Shown piece after piece: positions 1-10,000 of a DNA stretch of 10,000 bases. Origin of the DNA: Kiritimatiellota bacterium. Lineage in GTDB: Bacteria; Verrucomicrobiota; Kiritimatiellia; JAAZAB01. Position numbers and translations under genes: made by a program. Each line of letters starts with the position of its first letter. Position 1 is the first letter of the stretch. Location: positions 1-10,000 of the forward strand of contig VSJD01000308.1 of NCBI GenBank assembly GCA_008636095.1. Reading direction: 5' to 3'. The notes below the pieces were generated by a model that had not been told where the DNA came from, made no database searches, and saw only the letters and a list, made by a program, of their open reading frames with translations.

Positions 1-105
1 CTGGCCATTGATGAGCGAATCCAGCGGAGCATTGAAGCAGCCCAGGCGGCGCCCTTCCCGCAACCCAGGGCGCTTTATCAGGGAGTTTTTTATGAGGAAC
101 ATTAG
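1..105 (+). CDS. ThDP-dependent E1 alpha-type subunit, C-terminal end (5' truncated by window)
   Basis: The first reading frame is open from the window edge to a TAG at 103-105, giving 34 residues. They include IEAAQAAPFP and then ALYQGVFYEEH. This matches the usual tail of pyruvate/acetoin/2-oxoacid dehydrogenase E1 alpha subunits, an 'EA...A..SP.P....LY..VY' pattern. The gene directly downstream encodes the partner E1 beta-type subunit, and its ATG lies inside this gene, a 14-nt overlap that suggests translational coupling and equimolar synthesis. The ThDP-binding GDG...N motif would lie upstream of the window and cannot be checked. The identification rests on a short tail plus strong context. 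The enzyme would be the ThDP-binding half of an alpha2-beta2 heterotetramer that decarboxylates a 2-oxoacid. Confidence 0.7.
   Translation: MAIDERIQRSIEAAQAAPFPQPRALYQGVFYEEH
81..85 (+). promoter_or_regulatory. Shine-Dalgarno site fixing the E1 beta start
   Basis: GGGAG lies 6 nt upstream of the ATG at 92. It favours this start over the in-frame TTG/ATG codons at 8-13, which would add 28 residues of basic, unrelated sequence. That stretch is really the E1 alpha tail read in another frame. Confidence 0.7.
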
Positions 106-1132
106 TTTTTGTGAAGCCGTTAACGAAGCACTCATGCAGGAGATGGAGCGAGATTCATCCGTCGTGGTTTATGGCATTGGGGTGCCGGATCACAAGAAAG
201 TCTTCGGAACCACCCGCGGGCTTCTCGAACGATTCGGTCCTTCCCGTTGCTTCGATACTCCACTCTGTGAGGAAGCCATGACGGGTTTTGGGTTGGGCGC
301 GGCCATCAATGGGTTGCGTCCAGTACATGTTCATATTCGTGTTGATTTTTTACTTTTAGCCATGAATCAGTTGGTCAATATGGTTTCCTGCTTTGCTTAC
401 GAAACGGGCGGCAAACTCAAGACACCCTTAGTCATCAGGGCAATCGTCGGCAGGGGACTGGGCCAGGGAAGCCAGCACAGCAAAAGTCTGCATTCGTATT
501 TTTCGCATATTCCGGGGTTGAAGGTCGTTATTCCTACAACGCCCAGAGATGCCAAGGGATTAATGATCGCGGCAATCCGGGACAATAACCCGGTTGTTTA
601 TATCGAACATCGCTGGCTTCATTGGGCGGTCGGCGAGGTTCCCGAAGAACCGTATGAAATCCCAATTGGCGAAAGTCAGCGTCTGCACACAGGAGATGAT
701 GTCACGCTTGTAGGGACGTCATGGATGAACGTGGAAGCGTTGAAGGCGGCCGAAATACTGGACAGGCATGGTGTTGGATTGGATGTGATAGACCCGCGAA
801 CAATCGCCCCTTTTGATGATTCGTTAGTTATTCAATCTGTGCTAAAAACCGGTCGTTGTATCGTTGCCGATAATGATTGGGTGGATAGCGGATTCAGCGC
901 CGAAGTGGCCGCGCGAGTGTCCGAAAAATGCTTTGGAAAACTCAAGTCTCCCGTTCTGCGTATGGGGTTCGCGCACACGCCGTGTCCGACAGTCCGATGT
1001 CTTGAGAATGGATTTTATCCCAATGCGAGCAACATTATCCGGCTCGTGGAACATATGCTAAATATACACCCCATTGATCTCTCCGGTGAAGATTTCTATA
1101 GTCACGAGCGACATTTCAAGGGGCCTTTTTAA
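92..1132 (+). CDS. E1 beta-type / transketolase C-terminal-like ThDP enzyme subunit
   Basis: The protein has 346 residues, close to the roughly 325 usual for E1 beta subunits. The N-terminal pyrimidine-binding domain contains TPLCEEAMTGFGLGAA at 56-71, where Glu60 matches the conserved Glu that activates the ThDP aminopyrimidine ring. GQGSQHSKS at 124-132 followed by IPGLKVVIP at 140-148 is the family signature with its active-site His (H129). The transketolase C domain shows DVIDPRTIAPFD at 231-242. With the overlapping E1 alpha-type partner it should form an alpha2-beta2 decarboxylase that generates a C2 (hydroxyethyl or acetyl) carbanion from a 2-oxoacid. No lipoyl E2 or E3 gene follows; nucleotide-sugar genes do. 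A role in attaching a two-carbon branch to a sugar, as proposed for AviB1/AviB2 in avilamycin biosynthesis, is therefore a reasonable inference. The exact donor and acceptor are unknown. Confidence 0.85.
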   Translation: MRNISFCEAVNEALMQEMERDSSVVVYGIGVPDHKKVFGTTRGLLERFGPSRCFDTPLCEEAMTGFGLGAAINGLRPVHVHIRVDFLLLAMNQLVNMVSCFAYETGGKLKTPLVIRAIVGRGLGQGSQHSKSLHSYFSHIPGLKVVIPTTPRDAKGLMIAAIRDNNPVVYIEHRWLHWAVGEVPEEPYEIPIGESQRLHTGDDVTLVGTSWMNVEALKAAEILDRHGVGLDVIDPRTIAPFDDSLVIQSVLKTGRCIVADNDWVDSGFSAEVAARVSEKCFGKLKSPVLRMGFAHTPCPTVRCLENGFYPNASNIIRLVEHMLNIHPIDLSGEDFYSHERHFKGPF

Positions 1133-1242
1133 TCGGCGACAGGTTGGCTTATAAAAGCGTTTGCAAGTCCTTTAGCATAACGGTACTGATACATTGGCGT
1201 TGATGAAGAGCGTAATTGTTCCTTGCATAGAAAGGGATATTC

Positions 1243-2169
1243 ATGCCCGCTGTAAGCCTTGAAGATTTTGCGCTATCCTTTGGAATACCAATGGATTCTC
1301 TTGCTGGCGATTGCCGGCAAATGGTGAAATCCGCTGATTTCTCATACTCTGTCATCCAGAATGCCGCCAGAGATGCCTTGATATTGGATGTTCTGAAGCG
1401 GATTGATGCAGACAATCAACAAATAGGAGCAGAAGCGCGGCGTGGGGTATGGGAAAAAGGATGGAGCGAAAATCTCAATCGGTTCCGGGAAAGTGGATAC
1501 AATCTTAATGCGTTAAGGCCTAAGTTTATTCGAGCGGATCTTCCTGTCCGCTATGCCGGCAATTATATCAGACCCAATAACCCGGATTTTGAATATGATT
1601 ATATGACGGTTTTTCGAACATGGTTGTTTCGGGAATATTTAAAGGATTGCGATCGGGTTTATGAGTTTGGGTGCGGGACAGGGTTAAATCTGGTTCTGCT
1701 CGCTTCGCTATTCCCCAATATGGAACTCCATGGGCTTGATTTCGTCCCATCATCGGTGGATTTAGTCAATGAGGTTGGCCGGAGCAAGAAGCAGGAAATA
1801 TTCGGGCATTTGTTTGACATGATCCATCCGGATCGTTCGTTCCAGCTTAAAAAGAATTGTGCGGTGTTTACCTTTGGCGCTATCGAGCAATTAGCCGGTA
1901 AGTTCGAAGCATTTCTTCAGTATTTAATGGCAAATCGGCCGGCCATATGCTTTCACATCGAGCCAACGATAGAACTTTATGACGAAAACCTGCTGTTCGA
2001 TTATCTAGCGATTAAGTTTCACCGCAAGCGCGGGTATACGGAAGGGCTCCTGCCACGGCTTCAGGAACTTGCCTCTAAAGGTATCATTGAACTGATTAAA
2101 GTTAAACGCCTGTATTTTGGGAGTTTGTTCATGGAAGGATATTCGTATTTCGTATGGAGAATGAAATGA
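1243..2169 (+). CDS. Class I SAM-dependent methyltransferase
   Basis: The protein has 308 residues. The start is supported by AGGGA at 1233-1237, 5 nt before the ATG. Residues 139-147 (VYEFGCGTG) are SAM-binding motif I. Residues 163-168 (HGLDFV) end the second strand with the acidic residue expected to bind the ribose hydroxyls. The first 135 residues form a separate N-terminal region with WEKGWSENL at 70-78 and PVRYAGNYI at 101-109; I cannot assign it to a named domain, but it probably shapes the acceptor site. Residues 250-308 are a C-terminal extension rich in aromatic and basic residues. It sits 110 nt after the E1 beta gene and 18 nt before an SDR gene. In this setting it probably methylates a sugar or sugar-nucleotide intermediate, but the substrate and the methylated atom (O, C or N) cannot be read from the sequence. 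Confidence 0.75.
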   Translation: MPAVSLEDFALSFGIPMDSLAGDCRQMVKSADFSYSVIQNAARDALILDVLKRIDADNQQIGAEARRGVWEKGWSENLNRFRESGYNLNALRPKFIRADLPVRYAGNYIRPNNPDFEYDYMTVFRTWLFREYLKDCDRVYEFGCGTGLNLVLLASLFPNMELHGLDFVPSSVDLVNEVGRSKKQEIFGHLFDMIHPDRSFQLKKNCAVFTFGAIEQLAGKFEAFLQYLMANRPAICFHIEPTIELYDENLLFDYLAIKFHRKRGYTEGLLPRLQELASKGIIELIKVKRLYFGSLFMEGYSYFVWRMK

Positions 2170-2187
2170 GATGCGGCAGGGAATGCT

Positions 2188-2967
2188 ATGGATTTAAACT
2201 TAAAGACTAAATTTGCACTTGTAACTGGAGGCAGTCATGGCATCGGCCTGGCAACAGCCAAGGCGTTGGCAGCGGAAGGATGCAATGTGGCCATATGCGC
2301 CCGGCAGGAAGACCGTATTCGTAGTGCGGTGGCGGCATTGAAAGCTACGGGGTGTCAGGCAATCGGTATTCCGGCAGATGTTTTAATCCCCGCAGATATT
2401 GAGCGTGTCATGAAGACGGTGATTGCGGCTTGGGGGGCGCTCCATATTCTGATTAACAACGTAGGCGGTGGGGGCCGGTGGGGAAAACCATCAATCGAAG
2501 AAACTACTGAGGATGTCTGGATTGACGTGTATAATAAAAACGCCATGGCGGCCGTCCGATTTATCCGGCGGGTACTTCCTTATATGCGCAAACAGAAATG
2601 GGGGCGTGTGGTGACGGTAACATCAATTTGCGGCCGTGAGGGTGGGGGACGTCCGTGGTTTAATATGGCGAAAAGCGCTGAAATCAGTCTTATGAAATGT
2701 TTGAGTATGAGCAAAGAACTCGTTCGGGATGGACTCACCTTTAACAGCATTGCTCCTGGAGCCATTATGATTCCGGGAACCGGATGGGATGCCGAGCGCA
2801 AAAAAGATCTCGCAGGATTTGAGAAAATGATAGATGCCTTGCCTTTAGGGCGCTTGGGCACTCCCGAAGAAGTGGCGCATGTGATTGCGTTTTTATGTTC
2901 GGATAAGGCCGGTTGGGTTAATGGCGCCTGCATTACCGTGGATGGCGGAGAAAGCCGGTCGTTTTAA
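2188..2967 (+). CDS. Classical SDR oxidoreductase with Phe in place of catalytic Tyr
   Basis: The protein has 259 residues, typical for a classical short-chain dehydrogenase. AGGGA at 2178-2182 supports the ATG. The Rossmann cofactor motif TGGSHGIG is at 13-20, and Asp64 in ADV marks the adenine pocket. NNVG at 90-93 replaces the usual NNAG. The catalytic Ser is S146 in VTVTSICG, and Asn114-Lys or Asn117 lies in the helix that normally supplies the catalytic Asn. The YxxxK signature reads FNMAK at 158-162, so Lys162 is kept but the proton-relaying Tyr is Phe158 (codon TTT). The C-terminus is normal, with LGRLGTPEEVA at 220-230 and TVDGGESRSF at the end. It lies 18 nt after the methyltransferase gene. 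It probably acts on the product of the ThDP enzyme or on a keto-sugar, but the substitution leaves open whether it is a dehydrogenase, a mechanistic variant or a non-catalytic protein. Confidence 0.8.
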   Translation: MDLNLKTKFALVTGGSHGIGLATAKALAAEGCNVAICARQEDRIRSAVAALKATGCQAIGIPADVLIPADIERVMKTVIAAWGALHILINNVGGGGRWGKPSIEETTEDVWIDVYNKNAMAAVRFIRRVLPYMRKQKWGRVVTVTSICGREGGGRPWFNMAKSAEISLMKCLSMSKELVRDGLTFNSIAPGAIMIPGTGWDAERKKDLAGFEKMIDALPLGRLGTPEEVAHVIAFLCSDKAGWVNGACITVDGGESRSF

Positions 2968-3096
2968 GTGATTTGGCAACATGCGCAACAATGATCGTGT
3001 TGAAATCTCTGTTGAATAAATTGGCGCCGCATTATCCCAAAAAGTACACTTCTGTGATAATGATCTGTATTGTATGCATTGGCATGGAAAAGTCCC

Positions 3097-4188
3097 ATGA
3101 ATATTTCATCATACTATAACGCTTTAAAGTTTTCCTTGAATGATCAAGGATGGAACTCAACATCCAGGCTTGTGGCCAAAATGGCCCGGCAAGCATTATT
3201 TGGCAAAGCTCCATTCAAGTCGCGCGCATATCCGGGCGCAATTATTGTGGGGAGCATGAATTTCTGTAATCTTCAGTGTCAACATTGTTATCTGCGTGCC
3301 CAGCCAACGGCTGTCAAGCGGATGATGGATATTAATACGTTCGCTCGTATGACTGCACGGATAACCCCCTTAATTGAAAAAGCGGGTATATTCAACTTCG
3401 CCACGGTTGAGGCCTTGTTCCATCCAAAATTATTTGAGATGATGGACATGGTACGTTCGATCAATCCCGCTCTTTGCTGTGTCATATTTACCAATGGCAT
3501 GCTCCTGGATGAGGCGCGGATTGATGCTATTATCCATCATCGCCTGCGGCGGATTACCATATCATTGGATGGGTGCAATAAATCAACCGTGGAAGCCTTT
3601 AAAACGGGGATTGATTTTGACAAAGTTATCAGGAATATCCGATTGTTAAGATCAAGAGCGAGCGACAATATCAGGATCACAACAATATTTGTGGCGCATC
3701 GAAAAAATATTAAAGAACTGCCCGATTATGTTGACTTTTGCGCGGAGCTGGGTGTCGATGCCATTATTGTGAACGGATTGATTGCTTATCAGCCAGAAGC
3801 AGAGATTGATTGCCTGTATTCTTGGGAGGGACGGCCCGATATTGACGCCATTATTTTGCAAGCCGAACATAAGGCGGATCGAATTGGGATCTGTTTGCGG
3901 CACTTAGGCACAAAGCTGAACCCGGTCGGCTGTGGCTCTTCTGATGTGATGTATATTGACTTGGATGGCAATGTGACAACATGTGCAATGTTGGCCCAGC
4001 CTACAGCATGGGCGTTGGCGGGGAAAAAGGGAACGTCACGCCAAACTTTGTGGGGAAATATATTCAAGCAGAATCCATATGATATCTGGACCAGTGCGTC
4101 GTTTGTTGAGTTTCGGAAACAACTGTATGAAAATCATTTGCCGACGGCATGTTCGCTTTGTGCGGCTGGTCATAAGGTGATCTGTTGA
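3097..4188 (+). CDS. Radical SAM protein with SPASM-like C-terminal cysteines
   Basis: From the ATG at 3097 the protein has 363 residues. A TTG at 3070 in the same frame would add nine residues, but GGAAAAG at 3086-3092 favours the ATG. CNLQCQHC at 57-64 is the CxxxCxxC signature that binds the SAM-cleaving [4Fe-4S] cluster. FTNGMLLDE at 131-139 and ITISLDG at 153-159 are typical core strands of the radical SAM barrel. The C-terminal part has Cys279, then DLDGNVTTC at 288-296, then CSLCAAGHKVIC at 352-363. This spacing resembles a SPASM/twitch domain that holds auxiliary Fe-S clusters. Such proteins modify peptides or, in glycan and antibiotic clusters, dehydrogenate or epimerise carbohydrates. 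Here, just before nucleotide-sugar genes, a carbohydrate substrate is the better guess. No small peptide-precursor gene is evident nearby, which argues against RiPP maturation. Confidence 0.8.
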   Translation: MNISSYYNALKFSLNDQGWNSTSRLVAKMARQALFGKAPFKSRAYPGAIIVGSMNFCNLQCQHCYLRAQPTAVKRMMDINTFARMTARITPLIEKAGIFNFATVEALFHPKLFEMMDMVRSINPALCCVIFTNGMLLDEARIDAIIHHRLRRITISLDGCNKSTVEAFKTGIDFDKVIRNIRLLRSRASDNIRITTIFVAHRKNIKELPDYVDFCAELGVDAIIVNGLIAYQPEAEIDCLYSWEGRPDIDAIILQAEHKADRIGICLRHLGTKLNPVGCGSSDVMYIDLDGNVTTCAMLAQPTAWALAGKKGTSRQTLWGNIFKQNPYDIWTSASFVEFRKQLYENHLPTACSLCAAGHKVIC

Positions 4189-4201
4189 TGTTAGAAGCGT
4201 T

Positions 4202-5188
4202 ATGATTAATCAAGAAATATTGATGCTGTTCGCGGGCCGTAATGTGTTGGTAACGGGCGGGACAGGGATGATTGGCCGTGAAGTTGCTGCCATACTATGT
4301 TCAGCCACTGCCAAGGTGCGGATCGTTTCTCTGGATAGGATCGTGGTTCATCCAAAAGCCGAGCACGTCTATGGCGACCTGACCGACTTCTCGTTCTGTA
4401 AACAGATTGCCACGGACATTGACTACGTCTTTCATGTGGCCGGGATCAAGGGTTCCATCGAGGTGACCAAAAGCAAGCCGGCCAGTTTTTTCGTTCCGCT
4501 CCTGATGATGAACACCAACATGCTGGAGGCCTGCCGGGTTAATAAGGTTAAAAAAGTGGTTTACACAAGTTCCATCGGGGCTTATCCCAGCGCCGAGATA
4601 TTCCGCGAGGCGGATGGAAACGAAGGGCCGCCCATGGATATGTTCCCCGGCTGGGCCAAGCGCATGGCCGAAATGCAGGTGCAGGCCTATCGCATCCAAT
4701 ATGGCTTGGATAATTTCGCCGTGGTGCGCCCGTGTAATGTGTACGGGCCGGGCGATAATTTCGATCCGAAAAATGCCATGGTCATTCCGACGCTCATGTC
4801 CCGGATTGCCAACAAGGAAAACCCGGTGGTCATCTGGGGGGATGGTTCGGCGGTGCGCGATTTCGCGTTCAGCCGGGATGTGGCCGAAGGAGTGATTTTG
4901 GCGTTATATCACGGCACGAAAGACCAACCGTTCTTGAACTTGGGCAGTGGGGTGGGGGTCACGATTCGCGAATTAGTGGAAACCCTGCACAGGTTTCTCG
5001 ATTTTAACTATCGGTTCGACGCCTCCAAGCCGTCGGGTTTTCCCAAACGGGTCATGGATATTTCCCTGGCGCGGCAGATGCTCGGATATAATCCGAGCAC
5101 GTCCCTGCATGATGGGTTGAAAGAAACATGGAGCTGGTTCATGGCGCATCGCCAGGAATATCTTCAGCGGCAAAATTATTTTGCTTAA
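4202..5188 (+). CDS. NAD(P)-dependent sugar epimerase/dehydratase-type extended SDR (GDP-fucose synthase-like), copy 1
   Basis: The protein has 328 residues. The cofactor motif GGTGMIG is at 19-25, and YGDLTD at 57-62 is the adenine-pocket Asp region. YTSSIGAYP at 121-129 carries the catalytic Ser/Thr. RPCNVYGPGDNFDP at 176-189 and WGDGSAVRDFAFSRDVAEG at 212-230 are typical of GDP-fucose synthase and related 4-keto-sugar reductases. Two expected residues are missing: the YxxxK position reads PGWAK (149-153), keeping Lys153 but not Tyr, and the SxHVIP-like His of GDP-fucose synthase is Met193. A weak AGAAG at 4193-4197 precedes the ATG; Met8 (4223) is an alternative start. It lies 13 nt after the radical SAM gene and 20 nt before the RmlC-like gene, with a related paralogue at 5951-6916. 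It is probably a nucleotide-sugar C4 reductase, dehydratase or isomerase; the nucleotide (GDP favoured) and sugar are inferred. Confidence 0.8.
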   Translation: MINQEILMLFAGRNVLVTGGTGMIGREVAAILCSATAKVRIVSLDRIVVHPKAEHVYGDLTDFSFCKQIATDIDYVFHVAGIKGSIEVTKSKPASFFVPLLMMNTNMLEACRVNKVKKVVYTSSIGAYPSAEIFREADGNEGPPMDMFPGWAKRMAEMQVQAYRIQYGLDNFAVVRPCNVYGPGDNFDPKNAMVIPTLMSRIANKENPVVIWGDGSAVRDFAFSRDVAEGVILALYHGTKDQPFLNLGSGVGVTIRELVETLHRFLDFNYRFDASKPSGFPKRVMDISLARQMLGYNPSTSLHDGLKETWSWFMAHRQEYLQRQNYFA

Positions 5189-5197
5189 TCGCTAATT

Positions 5198-5203
5198 GGG
5201 AGG
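5198..5203 (+). promoter_or_regulatory. Shine-Dalgarno site fixing the RmlC-like start
   Basis: GGGAGG (within GGGAGGGGAAG) lies 5 nt before the ATG at 5209. It rules out the longer in-frame reading that begins at 5128 inside the preceding epimerase gene. Confidence 0.75.
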
Positions 5204-5208
5204 GGAAG

Positions 5209-5727
5209 ATGGAAGTACAAAAAACAAAACTGGACGGGGTGTTGCTAATAACTCCGCCGACAATATTCGAGGATTTCCGGGGGTGCTATGTCGAAACCTA
5301 CAACGAAAAGCTCTATAACGAGGCTGGCATCACGATGAGATTTGTCCAGGATGATATTTCCATCTCTTCCCGGCACGTGTTGCGCGGCCTGCATGGAGAT
5401 TGCGAGACCTGGAAATTAGTGTCCTGCCTTTACGGCCAATTTTATCTGGCCGTGGTGAATTATGATGAGTCCTCGCCCCAGTATCTTCAACGGGATGAGT
5501 TCACCCTCTCAGACAAGAACCGCCTGCAGGTGCTGATTCCGCCCCGGTTTGGGAATGGGCATCTGGTCTTAAGCGAGACGGCGGTTTTTCATTACAAACA
5601 AACATCATATTATAACCGGGCCGGGCAGTTTACGCTGGCCTGGAATGATCCTAAGTTTGGGATTTCGTGGCCGGTCAAACAGCCGATTGTCTCGAAACGG
5701 GATGAATCGGCGGAACTCTTAAAATAA
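5209..5727 (+). CDS. RmlC-like cupin, nucleotide 4-keto-sugar 3,5-epimerase
   Basis: The protein has 172 residues, near the 180 usual for RmlC-type epimerases. Family landmarks are FEDFRG at 20-25, QDDIS at 47-51 and RGLHGD at 59-64 with His62 as the expected catalytic base. IPPRFGNGH follows at 110-118, then Tyr129 in FHYK as the likely catalytic acid, AWNDPKFGISWP at 144-155 and SKRD at 162-165 with Asp165 completing the His-Asp dyad. The catalytic set therefore looks intact. The RGLHGD...TWKLV version differs from the RGLHYQ of true dTDP-rhamnose enzymes. It resembles, from memory, the epimerases of the Campylobacter jejuni GDP-6-deoxy-heptose pathway (MlghB/DdahB type). It would epimerise C3 and/or C5 of a nucleotide-linked 4-keto-6-deoxy sugar before C4 reduction. 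The 4,6-dehydratase that makes its substrate is not in the window and may lie upstream. Confidence 0.82.
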   Translation: MEVQKTKLDGVLLITPPTIFEDFRGCYVETYNEKLYNEAGITMRFVQDDISISSRHVLRGLHGDCETWKLVSCLYGQFYLAVVNYDESSPQYLQRDEFTLSDKNRLQVLIPPRFGNGHLVLSETAVFHYKQTSYYNRAGQFTLAWNDPKFGISWPVKQPIVSKRDESAELLK

Positions 5728-5870
5728 GAGACTATAGTAAACCCCATTCGGGAGGCACCTGAACGACAAAATCCTGAAAAAACAAGAATTTTTACACGAA
5801 GGGCGCAAAGTATTCATGGAAGATTGGTATATATTCTGTAACCTCTTTGATTTTTCTTTTCGATCTTCTG

Positions 5871-5899
5871 TTCAAATTTTCACCTTTTGTGGCTATACC
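5871..5899 (+). promoter_or_regulatory. Weak sigma70-like promoter candidate
   Basis: TTCAAA at 5871-5876 and TATACC at 5894-5899 each match 4 of 6 consensus bases, and they are separated by the optimal 17 nt. The site lies 51 nt upstream of the ATG at 5951, within the only long AT-rich gap between genes. Such matches are common by chance in AT-rich DNA. Confidence 0.22.
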
Positions 5900-5938
5900 C
5901 TTTTTGAGCAGGCACTAAAGTAGTCCATAGTCATCTTC

Positions 5939-5944
5939 GGGAGG
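5939..5944 (+). promoter_or_regulatory. Shine-Dalgarno site of the second epimerase gene
   Basis: GGGAGG lies 6 nt before the ATG at 5951. It is part of the duplicated TTCGGGAGGC box, whose other copy at 5747-5756 has no ATG at the right distance. Confidence 0.75.
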
Positions 5945-5950
5945 CTTTTT

Positions 5951-6916
5951 ATGTATAAAGGGGCGCGTGTTTTAGTGACTGGCGGCGCCGGTTTTGTGGG
6001 GTCTAATCTTGTGCGGCGGCTGGTGGTCCTGGGGGCCAAGGTGCGTGCCACCGTGCATATCGCCAAACCGATGGCGCCCGCCGAAGGGGTTGACTATCTG
6101 CCGGTGGATTTGCTGGAGGCCGATGACTGTGCCAAAGCCTGCAAGGATAAGGAATATGTGTTTCTGTGCGCGGCGGTGACTTCCGGCGCCGCGGTCATGG
6201 AAAAAACACCATTAGTCCATCTGACCCCGAACCTGATTATGAATGCCAGAATGCTGGAGGCCGCTTACAGCGCCGGTGTCCGGAAAGTATTGTTCATCAG
6301 CAGTAATACCGTATATCCGGTCACGGATTATCCGGTCAGGGAAACGGATTGCACCAACGAGTTTTACGAAAAATACTTTATTGTGGCCTGGATGAAGCGC
6401 TTTAGCGAGATCATCTGCGAAATGTATGCCGCGAAAATCAAGAAACCTATGCAAGCGGTCGTTGTTCGGCCAGCCAACATCTATGGGCCATTCGATAAAT
6501 TTGACTGGGAAACCTCGCATGTCCTGCCGGCCCTGATTCGCCGGGTGGTTGAGCGCCATGATCCCATCCAGGTCTGGGGCGACGGCAAGGATATCAAGGA
6601 CTTTATCTATGTGGATGATCTTGTTGAGGGATTGCTGTTGGCTATGGAAAAGATTAATGGATTCGATCCAATCAACCTGGCCAGTGGTCGGCAATACTGT
6701 TTGCGGGACCTTCTTGACCTGATGCTCAAGATTGATGGCTATGAGAATGCCCGCGTTGTATATGATGCCTCCAAGCCGACGATGATCCCCAAGCGCCTGA
6801 TTGATCCGACGAAGGCTAAGAGCCTGCTGGGGTTTGAAGTCAAAACCCCTGTTGAAGAAGGCCTGCGCAAAACAATCGAATGGTATCGCGGCGTTTGGGA
6901 AAAGACGAGGCGTTAA
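5951..6916 (+). CDS. NAD(P)-dependent sugar epimerase/dehydratase-type extended SDR (GDP-fucose synthase-like), copy 2
   Basis: The protein has 321 residues, the usual length for this family. GGAGFVG at 11-17 binds the dinucleotide, and PVDLLEADD at 51-59 is the adenine-pocket loop. ISSNTVYP at 116-123 supplies the catalytic Ser. RPANIYGPFDKFD at 173-185, SHVLPALIRR at 189-198 and VWGDGKDIKDFIYVDD at 208-223 resemble GDP-fucose synthase. It shares the ASKP...PKR C-terminal pattern (273-282) with the paralogue at 4202-5188. The YxxxK motif reads VAWMK (145-149), so Tyr is replaced by Val, and the Ser-Ser-Cys of GDP-fucose synthase is Ser-Ser-Asn-Thr. Loss of that Cys argues against self-epimerisation and fits a separate RmlC-like epimerase two genes upstream. 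It probably finishes the nucleotide-sugar by redox at C4 or nearby, but direction and substrate are uncertain. Confidence 0.82.
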   Translation: MYKGARVLVTGGAGFVGSNLVRRLVVLGAKVRATVHIAKPMAPAEGVDYLPVDLLEADDCAKACKDKEYVFLCAAVTSGAAVMEKTPLVHLTPNLIMNARMLEAAYSAGVRKVLFISSNTVYPVTDYPVRETDCTNEFYEKYFIVAWMKRFSEIICEMYAAKIKKPMQAVVVRPANIYGPFDKFDWETSHVLPALIRRVVERHDPIQVWGDGKDIKDFIYVDDLVEGLLLAMEKINGFDPINLASGRQYCLRDLLDLMLKIDGYENARVVYDASKPTMIPKRLIDPTKAKSLLGFEVKTPVEEGLRKTIEWYRGVWEKTRR

Positions 6917-6981
6917 TGCGTTGATTTGTCGGTCGGGTGATTCGTCTATGATGCCGGGCCATCTCTTTAAAAAAATAAGTC

Positions 6982-8214
6982 ATGAAGATTATATTTTGCA
7001 GTCCTTGCTTAAGTCATTTCCCCGGTGCTTATAGGGGACCGACGGCTCTCAAAGCTCGGAGCATGGCCGAAGTTGGGCTGGATGTCACAGTTATGGGGTT
7101 CCCATTAGACTTCGATCCCATTAAAACCCAGGAACGATTGCGTTACATCAGCGTTCAATCTGGTTTATCGGCACGATGTCGCGAGCTTATAGCCTTCTGC
7201 AGTCGCCGGTTAGGCCGCAGTTGGCTCTTTGTCGTAGAAGTCGGCTGGACGCAATGGGCTGCCTTGCGTTATGCGCGCCGACACGGCGCCGATGTGCTGT
7301 ATATATCAGACATTGAACCTTGGCTATTTCTTCCGGTTATGTGGTTGAACCGTTTTTGGCGGCGCGGACCGCGAGTGGTAGGGTTCTATGCGCAGCCATT
7401 TGACTGTATATCAACAACGTCATCCCTGTTGCAGATGCCGTGGTATACATGTTTGCGGACCCGACTTAACTATTGGGCTGCGCTTCGCTTGCCGAAAATT
7501 ATAGACGTGGTGAGCGATTGCAAATATACCGTTACGCCTTACACCAAAGTCAGTCCTGACCGGGTGCACGCCATTATGGAAGGTTATGAGCGCCCGCATC
7601 TGAATGGTTTTGAAAAATGTCGGGCCCGTCGCGAATTAAGCCTTCCATCAGACAAAAAGATATTGCTTCGTTTCGGCTTGGGAAGTCCGGGAAAAGGGAC
7701 CGATTTTCTTTTGGCGGCACTTAAGGGGATTCCAACAGCATTTGAGCTTTATGTTGTTGGCCAAATGGGAATCATCTGCCCTGACGAGGATCTGGCGTCA
7801 TTGGTGCCCGGCGCGTGGCGGGAGCACGTTCATTTTGTGTCTCGGTATGTATCGGAGAAGGAGCGGATTGCTTACTTTTCAGCCTGTGATGGCATTGTCT
7901 TGCCGTATCGGTTTGGTTTTTCAGGTGCCAGCGGAAATTTCCGTGATGCAATCAGTTTTGGGAAAGCTGTTCTGGCTTCCGATCAGTTTCTGATGGGCGA
8001 GATGGTCCGAAAATATGACTTAGGGCTTCTGTTTAAGCCGGAGGATGTTGAGGATTTGCGGCGCGCGCTGGTGGAGTTTACACAAAAGACGGATGACTGG
8101 TTTCAGGGAATTGCCGAAAGGAGCAAGGCCATCGTCGAAGAATTCGCATGGGATAAGATCGGGATGCAATATCGGGAGCTGTTTGAGCGGCTGGTTGCCG
8201 ATGGTAAGCGGTAA
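6982..8214 (+). CDS. GT4-like (GT-B fold) glycosyltransferase
   Basis: The protein has 410 residues with the two-domain pattern of GT-B enzymes. The N-terminal acceptor domain starts MKIIFCSPCLSHFPGAYRG, with a short glycine-containing loop after the first strand. The C-terminal donor domain begins near LRFGLGSPGKGTDFLL (229-244), the strand-loop that in GT4 enzymes reads G.....KG.d.L. HFVSRYVSEKERIAYFSACDGIVLP lies around 284-308, and SGASGNFRDAISFGKAVLASD at 314-334 replaces the usual EGfg.v..EAma.GkPVIa. The expected EX7E motif is not canonical: the first Glu is not evident. The protein is probably cytosolic or membrane-associated and adds one sugar to a lipid-linked glycan. The ribosome binding site is weak (ATAAG, 6975-6979). 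The stop codon and last codons lie in a GGTAAGN repeat, so the C-terminus is repeat-derived. Confidence 0.75.
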   Translation: MKIIFCSPCLSHFPGAYRGPTALKARSMAEVGLDVTVMGFPLDFDPIKTQERLRYISVQSGLSARCRELIAFCSRRLGRSWLFVVEVGWTQWAALRYARRHGADVLYISDIEPWLFLPVMWLNRFWRRGPRVVGFYAQPFDCISTTSSLLQMPWYTCLRTRLNYWAALRLPKIIDVVSDCKYTVTPYTKVSPDRVHAIMEGYERPHLNGFEKCRARRELSLPSDKKILLRFGLGSPGKGTDFLLAALKGIPTAFELYVVGQMGIICPDEDLASLVPGAWREHVHFVSRYVSEKERIAYFSACDGIVLPYRFGFSGASGNFRDAISFGKAVLASDQFLMGEMVRKYDLGLLFKPEDVEDLRRALVEFTQKTDDWFQGIAERSKAIVEEFAWDKIGMQYRELFERLVADGKR

Positions 8215-8223
8215 GTGGTAAGG
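8203..8223 (+). repeat. Heptanucleotide tandem repeat GGTAAGN x3
   Basis: GGTAAGC, GGTAAGT and GGTAAGG follow each other without gaps. The tract covers the last codons (Gly-Lys-Arg) and the TAA of the glycosyltransferase gene. It is one of several period-7 tracts in the last 1.8 kb of the window. Confidence 0.8.
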
Positions 8224-8250
8224 GGGACGTCAATAATTCCGAGTTAACAA

Positions 8251-9708
8251 ATGAACGAATCAACGAATCAACGAATCAACGAATCAACGCGCAGCCGGGC
8301 GCCATGGCTTATGGTTGTGGCCATCGTGGGCTTTGCCCTGATTATGTTCCGGCAGGTGCTTATCCCCGGCTATTGCCTGTTCACAACTGATGATAATATG
8401 GGCGCGATACGGTTGGGCAAGGATTGCCTGCGGATTTTTAACGGTTATTGGAACGACATCGTCATTTGTGGCCTGCCAAGCGGGATTGTGCCGATCGCGT
8501 GGAACGCATTGCTGATCTGGCTGTTGCCGATAACGTGCTATATCAACTGGATTCATGCGCTTGAGTTGGTCATCGCATCGCTGTTTTTCATGTTGTTCCT
8601 CAGGTGTCAGCATATTACCTGGCCGGCAATGGCCCTTGGGATTTTGGGCGCTTTATGGGTTGGCAGCAATCTGACCCTGGCTTACGCTGGACACGTCGGA
8701 AAATTCGGTGTTGTTATGATGGCTGCGATTGCGTTGTTTTGCGTGCGGCACGCATTATTCCCGAAAACGAACGTGCTCTGGGGGTATTTGGCGGGTGGTG
8801 CCATTGGGTTCATGTTTCTTGAACAATTGGATGTGGCCTTGTTTTTTGGCTTTGTCCTGGGCGCTTATGCCTTGTTTTTGGCAATCCGGCAATGGCAGGC
8901 GAATGGTGTATGGCTGAAATCAGTAGTCGCGCTCATCTTGATGGGTGGGGTTGGGCTGATGCTTTCAGCATCTACGATGTTTAGTAGTTATACCGCTAAT
9001 GTTAAAGGCGCGGTCAGTATGCAAACGGAATCCCCGCGGGAGAAATGGGATTACGTCACGCAATGGAGTTGGCCGCCGGAGGAATGTATTGATTTCATCG
9101 CGCCGGGCTACATGGGCTGGCGTAGTAGCGAGCCGGCCGGCCCATACTGGGGGCGCATGGGACGGTCCCCAGGCTGGGAACAAACGCGGCAGGGCTTCAT
9201 GAATTTTAAGCTGGAAAACCAGTATCTGGGAATCATTCCGATCCTGCTGGCGGTGTTTGCGGTTTTGATGGCGATTATGGGAAAAGGTTCATGGTTCACG
9301 GTTGATGTTCCAGATGCCGTTGGCAATAGTGGCTCAATTCCAGGCATGGTCCGGCGTCCGGTATCTGGCGTCTGGTGTCCATTTGCTGCCGAGCGCCGTG
9401 CCGAAATCCTGTTCTGGGCCTGTGTGGCGGTGATTACGCTTTTGCTGGCGTTTGGCAAGTTTTTTCCCTTGTATGCTCTGTTTTATAAGTTGCCCTTAAT
9501 CTCCTCCATCCGCAATCCGAACAAGTTCCTGCAGATCTTCCAGTTGGCGCTGGGCATCCTGGCGGCCTATGGGCTGGATGAAGTGTTGCGAAGCAAACGC
9601 CCAACATCCAACGCTCAACGCCCAATGTCGGATGAAAGACCGCGAATCAGACACCAGATGACGGATACCGGACGACAGACGACTAACACCGTAGACTGTG
9701 GGTTGTAG
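8251..9708 (+). CDS. Polytopic YfhO-like membrane protein, probably truncated and repeat-modified
   Basis: The 485-residue product has about ten hydrophobic segments, approximately at 19-37, 79-97, 102-117, 124-142, 149-168, 193-212, 222-241, 325-343, 386-403 and 427-444. A soluble loop spans about 245-322 with KWDYVTQWSWPPEE and DFIAPGYMGWR. Charged motifs TDDN (46-49), AGHVGKFG (146-153) and FLEQLDVALFFG (189-200) resemble YfhO/GT-C-type proteins that may glycosylate or move lipid-linked sugars in the cytoplasmic membrane. YfhO proteins are usually longer (often 600-850 residues). Here the sequence runs into repeat-encoded residues at 448-485 and stops. Residues about 346-380 look like an in-frame insertion, and residues 2-13 come from an 8-bp repeat. 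No good ribosome binding site precedes 8251; Met21 (8311) is a possible true start. Function is inferred from topology and the neighbouring glycosyltransferase. Confidence 0.55.
   Translation: MNESTNQRINESTRSRAPWLMVVAIVGFALIMFRQVLIPGYCLFTTDDNMGAIRLGKDCLRIFNGYWNDIVICGLPSGIVPIAWNALLIWLLPITCYINWIHALELVIASLFFMLFLRCQHITWPAMALGILGALWVGSNLTLAYAGHVGKFGVVMMAAIALFCVRHALFPKTNVLWGYLAGGAIGFMFLEQLDVALFFGFVLGAYALFLAIRQWQANGVWLKSVVALILMGGVGLMLSASTMFSSYTANVKGAVSMQTESPREKWDYVTQWSWPPEECIDFIAPGYMGWRSSEPAGPYWGRMGRSPGWEQTRQGFMNFKLENQYLGIIPILLAVFAVLMAIMGKGSWFTVDVPDAVGNSGSIPGMVRRPVSGVWCPFAAERRAEILFWACVAVITLLLAFGKFFPLYALFYKLPLISSIRNPNKFLQIFQLALGILAAYGLDEVLRSKRPTSNAQRPMSDERPRIRHQMTDTGRQTTNTVDCGL
8254..8289 (+). repeat. 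Octanucleotide tandem repeat AACGAATC x4.5
   Basis: Four perfect copies of AACGAATC (8254-8285) plus AACG follow the ATG at 8251 directly. Because the unit is 8 bp, gain or loss of one copy shifts the reading frame of everything downstream of this ATG. Frame is kept with the present copy number. Confidence 0.9.
9286..9306 (+). repeat. Heptanucleotide tandem repeat GGTTCAY/GGTTGAT x3
   Basis: GGTTCAT, GGTTCAC and GGTTGAT are consecutive. They lie inside the membrane-protein gene at the left edge of a hydrophilic segment between two predicted membrane spans. Confidence 0.7.
9349..9380 (+). repeat. Degenerate heptanucleotide repeat RTCYGGY x4.6
   Basis: GTCCGGC, GTCCGGT, ATCTGGC, GTCTGGT and a partial GTCC are consecutive. 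The tract is in frame within the membrane-protein gene (encoding about VRRPVSGVWCP). Its reverse complement matches the tract at 9650-9684 at about 27 of 33 positions by eye. Confidence 0.8.
9598..9625 (+). repeat. Degenerate heptanucleotide repeat CGCYCAA x4
   Basis: CGCCCAA, CATCCAA, CGCTCAA and CGCCCAA are consecutive. They encode RPTSNAQRP, the start of the unusual C-terminal tail of the membrane protein. Confidence 0.8.
9650..9684 (+). repeat. Degenerate heptanucleotide repeat GAYRCCR-like x5
   Basis: GACACCA, GATGACG, GATACCG, GACGACA and GACGACT are consecutive, and AACACCG at 9685-9691 may be a sixth unit. The tract encodes part of the basic, Thr/Asp/Arg-rich tail of the membrane protein. 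It is an inverted relative of the tract at 9349-9380. Confidence 0.75.
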
Positions 9709-9716
9709 GTTGAGGG
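9700..9716 (+). repeat. Short heptanucleotide repeat RGGTTGW x2.4
   Basis: GGGTTGT, AGGTTGA and GGG are consecutive. The stop codon (TAG, 9706-9708) of the membrane-protein gene lies inside this tract. Confidence 0.5.
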
Positions 9717-9756
9717 CGGAAGGGGCGACTATCCCATGATATCGCGGGGAGAATCG

Positions 9757-9761
9757 AAAGG
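9757..9761 (+). promoter_or_regulatory. Shine-Dalgarno site of the lipoprotein gene
   Basis: AAAGG lies 7 nt before the ATG at 9769. It favours this start over an in-frame ATG at 9736, which would place 11 polar and charged residues ahead of the signal peptide. Confidence 0.55.
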
Positions 9762-9768
9762 TCATTTG

Positions 9769-10000
9769 ATGTATCATGTCAGGTTTTTTGTTGTTGTGGC
9801 CCTGGCGGCCATTTGCCTCTGCGGGTGTTTTCCCGGGAAGAAATCCACGGAGCGTGTGACGTTCCAGCAACTGGTCAACCGGCTTACAGATATTCAAAGC
9901 CTGGCGCGAATGGACCTCCCGGAAACGAGCCTGCTTTGTTCCTCTGATCCCACGGGCGGCAACGGCGACTATAACCATCCTCTGCGGCAGGGTCCCGCAG
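9769..10000 (+). CDS. Lipoprotein with GH172/DUF2961-like N-terminus (3' truncated by window)
   Basis: The first 77 codons are present and open to the window edge. Residues 1-20 form a lipoprotein signal peptide: MYHVR, a hydrophobic stretch VVVALAAICL, and the lipobox LCGC with Cys20 as the lipidated residue. The mature part includes FQQLVNRLTDIQSLARMD (about 30-47) and then CSSDPTGGNGDYN. This resembles the start of DUF2961 proteins, in which a short N-terminal helix precedes an 'SS-D-TGGN-D' motif. DUF2961 is now glycoside hydrolase family GH172, which includes enzymes acting on fructofuranosides and D-arabinofuranosides. If correct, this is an outer-membrane or periplasmic glycan-processing enzyme. 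It begins 60 nt after the membrane-protein gene and may not belong to the same biosynthetic unit. The catalytic residues lie beyond the window, so the assignment rests on a short match. Confidence 0.6.
   Translation, partial: MYHVRFFVVVALAAICLCGCFPGKKSTERVTFQQLVNRLTDIQSLARMDLPETSLLCSSDPTGGNGDYNHPLRQGPA

Follow-up and report, generated by a model that had tools for sequence, protein, structure and literature searches.

E2-less E1-type thiamine diphosphate enzymes in a predicted GDP-heptose locus of a Kiritimatiellota bacterium

Gene content and order of the locus

A 10,000-nucleotide stretch from the genome of a Kiritimatiellota bacterium (assembly GCA_008636095.1, contig VSJD01000308.1, positions 1–10,000, forward strand; hereafter the window) carries an E1 α/E1 β pair of the 2-oxo acid dehydrogenase type, which depends on thiamine diphosphate (ThDP), followed by a set of enzymes that appear to act on a nucleotide-activated sugar. 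Judged from sequence, this pair is very probably an E1 without an E2 that lies within a locus for GDP-heptose. The window is piece C26 of a genome of 3.8 Mb in 357 contigs (87% complete), which was partly split into 10-kb pieces. Reading frames continue across the ends of C25, C26, and C27; a gene for a 767-aa protein spans C26 into C27, and a Ugd-like gene spans C23 into C24. The adjacency of C24 and C25 is an assumption, with no gene spanning that junction.

E1 α (327 aa) starts at G000:C25:9122, runs to the end of that piece (9122–10000), and is complete once the adjoining piece is joined. The C-terminal 34 residues of this ThDP-binding subunit (1..105, plus strand, joined reading frame 1) open the window, and its PDB matches are E1 α subunits of pyruvate dehydrogenase (PDH) and branched-chain dehydrogenase. 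E1 β (346 aa, 92..1132), recognized by the Pfam domains Transket_pyr and Transketolase_C as well as by alignment and phylogeny, has a C-terminal extension ending in FKGPF. It is followed on the same strand by genes for a methyltransferase-like protein (MT7, 1243..2169; Pfam methyltransferase matches weak and below the cut-off), a classical short-chain dehydrogenase/reductase (SDR, 2188..2967; Pfam) with Phe replacing the catalytic Tyr (FxxxK), and a radical SAM/SPASM protein (about 3097..4188, start codon inferred; Pfam). Next come two extended, GDP-fucose-synthase-like SDRs identified with Pfam and NCBIfam, FCL1 (4202..5188) with Pro and FCL2 (5951..6916; also by alignment) with Val at the usual Tyr site and both with the Lys kept. 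Between these two lies an RmlC-type 3,5-epimerase (about 5209..5727, start codon inferred), nearest in the PDB to the GDP-4-keto-heptose epimerase group, and the series ends with a glycosyltransferase of the Glycos_transf_1 type (6982..8214; Pfam), which suggests a surface-glycan context. All genes that the initial annotation had reported, from the E1 pair to the epimerase, are present.

Extending the locus upstream, as had been proposed in that annotation, added a second E1 pair (A) to the window pair (B). Piece C25 encodes, in this order, E1 α of pair A (1196–2137), a radical SAM protein, E1 β of pair A (3946–5022), an FkbM protein, the 4,6-dehydratase that had been sought (C25:6126–7184), another radical SAM protein, a NUDIX protein, and E1 α of pair B. 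The nucleotidyltransferase likewise sought there was not found. Piece C24 contributes, with names partly assigned by eye, a Ugd-like dehydrogenase, a flippase-like protein, an FCL-like SDR, an SDR, an HddA-like kinase, a glycosyltransferase, a radical SAM/B12-type protein, a methyltransferase, and another radical SAM/B12-type protein.

A third E1 pair of the genome (C31/C33) lies in a separate glycan locus with DegT genes and an HldE-like protein. This locus (C31/C33/C34; L046, L048, L173) has two DegT genes besides GmhA/GmhB-like genes, and a plasmid of Azospirillum oryzae (L156) holds a similar gene set in a different order.

An E1 class without E2

In the source genome the E2 core domain (PF00198) has a single match, on C144, where it adjoins another E1. 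Neither E2 nor E3 was detected by tblastn, with the E2 of a Priestia plasmid as E2 query, in any of 80 related loci or of seven virus-like loci from IMG/VR, and neither was found in the window locus including its upstream part, as the initial annotation had stated for the pair. The same E2 query was positive in five of eight control E1 loci, which were drawn from the same family or genome as the window. Out of 477 confirmed relatives, the 80 best supplied the related loci, so that close relatives are over-represented; several of these loci are of one layout (Reyranella group).

The β subunit carries about 20 extra C-terminal residues that end in F-x-G-P-F. This tail is found in 92 of the 93 complete E1 β sequences of the 80 loci (94 including the incomplete one) and in 118 of the 120 nearest proteins, the window's own included. 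In a FastTree phylogeny of 129 E1 β sequences, with the sequence from C144 as root, the clade descending from the last common ancestor of all sequences with the tail comprised 113 members with a support of 0.98; sequences of KbDH, Pau11/Pau12, and AviB are not part of this tree. All 16 sequences outside the clade, among them every sampled E2-linked E1 β, are tail-less. Inside it, the tail is missing from L103, which is cut by a contig end, and from L137, and two E1 β sequences from Streptomyces plasmids (L138, an annotated biosynthetic region, and L140, an unannotated record) end in FAGPY and FIGPY.

The α subunit of the window pair contains the ThDP motif GDG..N and a loop reading EHVG. Among the relatives this loop is mostly EHVG or EHCG (exactly EHVG in 73 of the 94 E1 α sequences from the loci), whereas E2-linked E1 α subunits have GHS, GHY, GHH, or GHF in its place. 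Residues E61 and H130 of E1 β, which we take to have the catalytic roles of their counterparts in PDH E1, are invariant in 16 aligned sequences including the window's own. An AlphaFold model of E1 β, based on a 16-sequence alignment, has a mean predicted local distance difference test score of 75 with values below 50 for residues 339–347, and is uninformative on the tail.

The heterodimeric architecture with its ThDP motif and conserved catalytic residues, the lack of a cognate E2/E3 in the window locus (genome 87% complete) and in 80 relatives, and the location among genes for keto-sugar nucleotides all agree with the features of E2-independent E1-type (α-KADH2) carboligases. Identification as a housekeeping 2-oxo acid dehydrogenase E1 was rejected because of the missing adjacent E2/E3, the tail, and the clade apart from the sampled E2-linked E1s, and a YerE-type carboligase because the domains are those of a two-subunit PDH-type enzyme, not of a single acetolactate synthase (ALS)-like ThDP enzyme. 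An E2 gene directly upstream and clear orthology to a housekeeping E1 complex, the two outcomes that the initial annotation had named as speaking against its proposal, did not occur according to E2 search, tail, and tree, the latter outcome being judged against the housekeeping complexes sampled.

A further E1 pair of the genome (G000:C233:8356–9324; L166), with same-genus relatives in L164, L165, and L172, has neither a nearby E2 nor the F-x-GPF tail.

Conservation of the neighborhood

Neighboring genes were counted by tblastn with query proteins partly taken from the same loci and with identity thresholds set by us. In the 36 loci with at least 8 kb of sequence on either side, E1 α was detected in all 36, a heptose gene (HddA-, HldE-, GmhA-, or GmhB-like) in 30, FCL in 25, the dehydratase in 24, RmlC in 19, and SDR in 18; the heptose gene, FCL, dehydratase, RmlC, and SDR were found in none of the eight control loci. 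In the search for co-occurrence suggested by the initial annotation, the gene set recurs together under many phylum labels and is well above chance. Across all 80 loci, the dehydratase lies at most 1.5 kb from E1 α in 26 (16 on the same strand, 10 divergent), both E1 types occur together, as in the window locus, in 13, relatives of RmlC (at least 45% identity) are present in 32, and those of MT7, often adjoining E1 or SDR, in 30. An aldo-keto reductase is encoded in 20 loci, a DegT aminotransferase in 18, a split transketolase (TktN) in 16, and GmhA in 10, and 6 have ALS-type genes along with the E1 pair. L049, L063, L065, and L068 combine ThDP enzymes of three kinds, namely the E1 pair, the split transketolase, and an ALS-like protein.

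Among the names under which depositors filed the 80 records are Omnitrophota, Gemmatimonadetes, Chloroflexi, Alpha- and Betaproteobacteria, Geobacteraceae, Planctomycetota, Marinimicrobia, Elusimicrobia, Lentisphaerae, Nitrospira, Acidobacteria, Cyanobacteria, several candidate phyla, and some archaeal metagenome-assembled genomes, although such genomes may be mislabeled. Of 387 genomes sampled from the phylum of the window, the source genome alone has a match at E ≤ 1e-115, so that vertical inheritance throughout the phylum is unsupported; a genome of the same genus (G006) holds an A-type pair and the dehydratase at 77–87% identity. Relatives were also found on seven IMG/VR contigs. Five of these virus-like loci (L130–L134) retain the dehydratase, E1 α, E1 β, FkbM, SDR, FCL, and RmlC, in L130–L133 in the order dehydratase, E1 α, E1 β, FkbM, SDR, FCL1, RmlC, FCL2 with other genes interspersed. 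Just upstream of the cassette in L132 (4664–15246), PHROGs identifies a DNA polymerase, a clamp loader, a single-strand binding protein, and UvsX, and an HNH endonuclease gene separates its E1 α and E1 β. GenBank phages gave no close match (36 records, the best with 39% identity among the matches listed), and the E1 β DNA had no blastn match in E. coli genomes. This distribution is naturally read as horizontal transfer in which phages had a part.

Two genes of the window stand outside the conserved set. The glycosyltransferase has no relatives in the 80 related loci and is thus not conserved. The radical SAM/SPASM protein, for which a homolog search returned 52 proteins including itself, also has no relative there and is not considered a member of the pathway, which leaves the analogy to the avilamycin protein AviX12, drawn in the initial annotation, unsupported.

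Near the end of the window, short sequences at 9347–9380 and 9590–9683 match the genome at 14 further places. Among them is an imperfect inverted repeat of 31 nt, its arms 270 nt apart, inside the C-terminal part of a 485-aa membrane-protein open reading frame. By eye, the membrane-protein frames at window 8251–9708 and C27:2366–3682 look like two parts of one YfhO-like protein with the 767-aa frame between them.

Evidence for a heptose

The closest PDB match of the C25 dehydratase is 7us5, a GDP-D-glycero-D-manno-heptose 4,6-dehydratase (291 bits), with which it shares the motif SSSEVYG; next follow a GDP-6-deoxy-lyxo-hexulose reductase (226 bits), another reductase (172 bits), and a GDP-mannose dehydratase (143 bits). 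For the window RmlC, the top 8 of 26 PDB matches score 128–130 bits and the other 18 at most 113. Five of these eight chains are named for GDP-heptose and three as TDP-rhamnose epimerase, the latter presumably being Campylobacter heptose enzymes as well. The HddA-like kinase of the locus (C24) is nearest to 4usk, named a sugar kinase and assumed by us to be the heptokinase WcbL, and to 3k85, named a heptose kinase. In L055 and L063, kinase, isomerase, phosphatase, nucleotidyltransferase, dehydratase, and E1 pair are encoded all together. The unusual nucleotide-sugar pathway proposed in the initial annotation is hence supported and can be narrowed to GDP-heptose by the nearest PDB matches and by the heptose genes in 30 of the 36 well-flanked loci.

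SDR-fold proteins without the catalytic tyrosine

The catalytic Tyr of classical and extended SDRs stands four residues before the Lys. Among 38 sequences of the window SDR family from the loci (its own and five virus-like ones included), this position is Phe in 34 and Tyr in 4, and all 38 retain Ser and Lys. The 120 nearest proteins, counting the window's own, show Phe in 113, Tyr in 5, and His in 1, with 1 unreadable by pattern and two unmatched rows read by eye. FCL1 has Pro or Ala in all 29 sequences and FCL2 has Val, Ala, Ser, or Ile in all 32 (own and virus-like ones included in both sets), and the Lys is kept throughout save in one FCL2. Aligned with HMMER to the E. coli GDP-fucose synthase, FCL1 places Pro at Tyr136 and Lys at Lys140. 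At least 90% of the 32 FCL2 sequences share a Tyr, seven residues ahead of the Lys, that might substitute for the usual one. The C25 4,6-dehydratase (PYAVSK) and the FCL-like SDR of C24 keep YxxxK.

GDP-fucose synthase is the best NCBIfam match of both FCL1 and FCL2, but their scores of 161 and 158 bits are far below the cut-off of 500. With the Tyr of the Ser-Tyr-Lys triad missing too, this identity was rejected, and plain GDP-fucose-synthase chemistry, as implied by the names that the initial annotation gave to the two SDRs, is not upheld. Nor do they have the complete triad of a C4 reductase of the DdahC type. According to PMC7949155, GDP-fucose synthase uses the Ser-Tyr-Lys triad, and DdahC (44% identical) and MlghC (38%) are described with a catalytic triad. 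As guesses, reduction by the Tyr-less enzymes could be aided by a hydroxyl of the substrate itself, or they could catalyze a rearrangement.

Predicted pathway and alternatives

We lean slightly toward a function of the E1 pair as E2-independent ThDP carboligase of a surface-glycan pathway on GDP-heptose, which would add an acetyl branch to GDP-4-keto-6-deoxyheptose. Each chemical step of this pathway is predicted from the genes. Heptose 7-phosphate would be activated to GDP-heptose, which the dehydratase would convert to GDP-4-keto-6-deoxyheptose, and RmlC may epimerize C3 and/or C5. The E1 pair would decarboxylate a 2-oxo acid, most likely pyruvate, and add the two-carbon acyl unit to the ketone, yielding a 4-C-acetyl branched sugar with nine carbons. 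This branch might then be methylated as well as altered by the neighboring Tyr-less SDRs, a task that in some of the other loci an aldo-keto reductase or a DegT aminotransferase may perform, and the sugar would enter the surface polysaccharide. As the dehydratase beside E1 could supply the ketone acceptor, the simplest scheme is the transfer of acetyl from pyruvate to C4 of GDP-4-keto-6-deoxyheptose; for acetyl transfer onto a 4-keto sugar by the E1 pair as such, we consider the chances about even. Precedent and context suggest the two-carbon branch, and the aldo-keto reductase and DegT genes of other loci recall how the branch is reduced and transaminated in known antibiotics.

Several observations weigh against this function. 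If the C4 ketone is consumed by E1, the 4-keto-processing RmlC and FCL genes would need another intermediate or sugar, and simple reduction of the branch is doubtful because SDR, FCL1, and FCL2 lack the usual SDR tyrosine. Three of the eight control loci, which hold C233-type E1 pairs without the tail, likewise have no E2 nearby, so that its absence by itself is weak evidence. The E1 β of the Solidesulfovibrio heptose locus L137 is tail-less, and the E1 α subunits of L051 and L137 do not have the EH loop. No heptose gene was detected in 6 and no dehydratase in 12 of the 36 well-flanked loci. Moreover, no gene for an SDR, aldo-keto reductase, or DegT protein lies closer than 4.5 kb to 36 of 94 E1 pairs, half of which (18) are near contig ends, and we do not claim that each E1 pair has one ketone-processing enzyme. 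Kinase, dehydratase, and RmlC score below the NCBIfam cut-offs, so the term heptose is based on nearest relatives and context; GmhA/GmhB-like genes of the source genome are weak matches away from the locus, on C34, and a guanylyltransferase is missing from the locus and has weak matches elsewhere in this 87%-complete genome.

Other functions of the E1 pair have to be considered. Since the dehydratase, RmlC, and reductase-like genes mirror DdahA/B/C, and no dehydratase was detected along with the E1 pair in a third of the well-flanked loci (12 of 36), the locus might make only the known GDP-6-deoxyheptoses in the manner of Campylobacter and Yersinia, with the E1 pair serving another residue of the same glycan. 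We regard this as unlikely, because the dehydratase adjoins E1 in 26 of 80 loci, both are kept in the virus-like cassettes, and the reductases of that known pathway are described with a triad whose tyrosine is missing from FCL1 and FCL2. Somewhat less credible still is a decarboxylating, transketolase-like enzyme that would combine, for example, hydroxypyruvate with an aldose phosphate and feed a ketoheptose phosphate to GmhA, thus forming the precursor and not the branch. The frequent heptose genes (30 of 36 loci) would suit such an activity, and TktN in 16 of the same 80 loci suggests that sugar phosphates undergo ThDP chemistry there in any case, but where present the split transketolase could already do this job; in addition, 13 of 80 loci have two E1 pairs of differing type, and a nucleoside diphosphate-sugar dehydratase is close to E1 in 26 whereas GmhA was detected in only 10.

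A similarly low probability is assigned to the release of a free acyl or aldehyde product that would decorate the glycan as an acylation donor without forming a C–C branch: the methyltransferase-like and FkbM proteins do suggest a decorated sugar, yet no E2 was found, and neither acyl carrier nor acyltransferase was recognized by eye in the 45 largest clusters of neighboring genes, smaller clusters being unread. It is very improbable that the pair is a housekeeping-type E1 that stands here by chance and uses the single detected E2 of the genome at a distance. Its separate clade, the differing C-terminus and E1 α loop, and a polysaccharide context conserved across phyla and virus-like contigs argue against this, even though the Pfam domains are the same, E1 β is 45% identical to that of C144, and a nearby E2 is likewise missing from three further E1 pairs of the family.

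Seen more widely, and more tentatively than the carboligase function of the window pair, the many phylum labels and virus-like contigs may share a mobile nucleotide-sugar pathway with one or two E2-free carboligases of the E1 type, which would build a branched or rearranged sugar of nine or more carbons on GDP-4-keto-6-deoxyheptose, together with three Tyr-less SDR-fold enzymes of non-standard chemistry; we consider this possible, if not quite probable.

Comparison with known systems

The E1 pair shares its domains, the ThDP motif, and the conserved Glu and His with the housekeeping E1s of PDH, branched-chain, and acetoin complexes. These differ in having an E2, in the missing F.GPF tail, and in the GH[S/Y/H/F] loop, the acetoin type having been sampled from plasmid sequences only. 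The dehydratase and RmlC of the locus are closest to the GDP-heptose modification enzymes of Campylobacter (DdahA/B/C, MlghB/C). That pathway differs in that no ThDP enzyme is mentioned in the passages of PMC7949155 considered, and in that DdahC and MlghC have the triad whose Tyr is lacking in FCL1 and FCL2.

In lipopolysaccharide, sugar branching is ascribed to YerE-like enzymes, and the α-KADH2 and transketolase types are mainly assigned to specialized natural products (PMC12247030). YerE of the yersiniose pathway and ErwE resemble the predicted system in ThDP-dependent carboligation onto a 4-keto nucleotide sugar for a surface polysaccharide (PMC12247030). YerE differs in being of the ALS type with another subunit architecture and in its acceptor, CDP-3,6-dideoxy-4-keto-glucose. 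No E1-type pair in a heptose locus for surface polysaccharide was reported in titles and opening abstract lines of the matches listed from the open PMC literature, a scope that leaves aside subscription papers and preprints and is no proof of absence. For Coxiella, whose O-antigen locus may contain E1 genes, the main text of one paper mentions neither pyruvate dehydrogenase nor thiamin. If the prediction holds, a conserved E1-type route on GDP-heptose would represent a so far unrecognized class of bacterial surface sugars and a source of many new C–C bond-forming catalysts for tertiary alcohols, and it would raise the question of what role SDRs deprived of their catalytic tyrosine have.

The closest parallel is offered by the α-KADH2 enzymes. 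PDH-like pairs are the proposed catalysts of a two-carbon addition to keto sugars in the biosynthesis of avilamycin (AviB1/AviB2), everninomicin (EvdU5/EvdS3), and paulomycin (Pau11/Pau12), and the kibdelomycin enzyme KbDH joins pyruvate with ketones in vitro (PMC12247030 section 2.2, PMC4753412, PMC4425429, PMC10338323); for aldgamycin, a review reports feeding and knockout data (PMC12247030). Like the window pair, AviB1/AviB2, Pau11/Pau12, EvdU5/EvdS3, and KbDH-α/β are two-subunit PDH-like E1s, for which sugar branching has been proposed or tested, and the subunits of Pau11/Pau12 (325/345 aa; PMC4425429) compare with 327/346 aa here. The likeness is drawn from published descriptions and subunit lengths, and these carboligases belong to antibiotic pathways, whereas the pairs studied here lie in surface-glycan loci with GDP-heptose genes under many phylum labels. 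We regard the finding as real; it represents a known kind of carboligase pathway in an unusual form.

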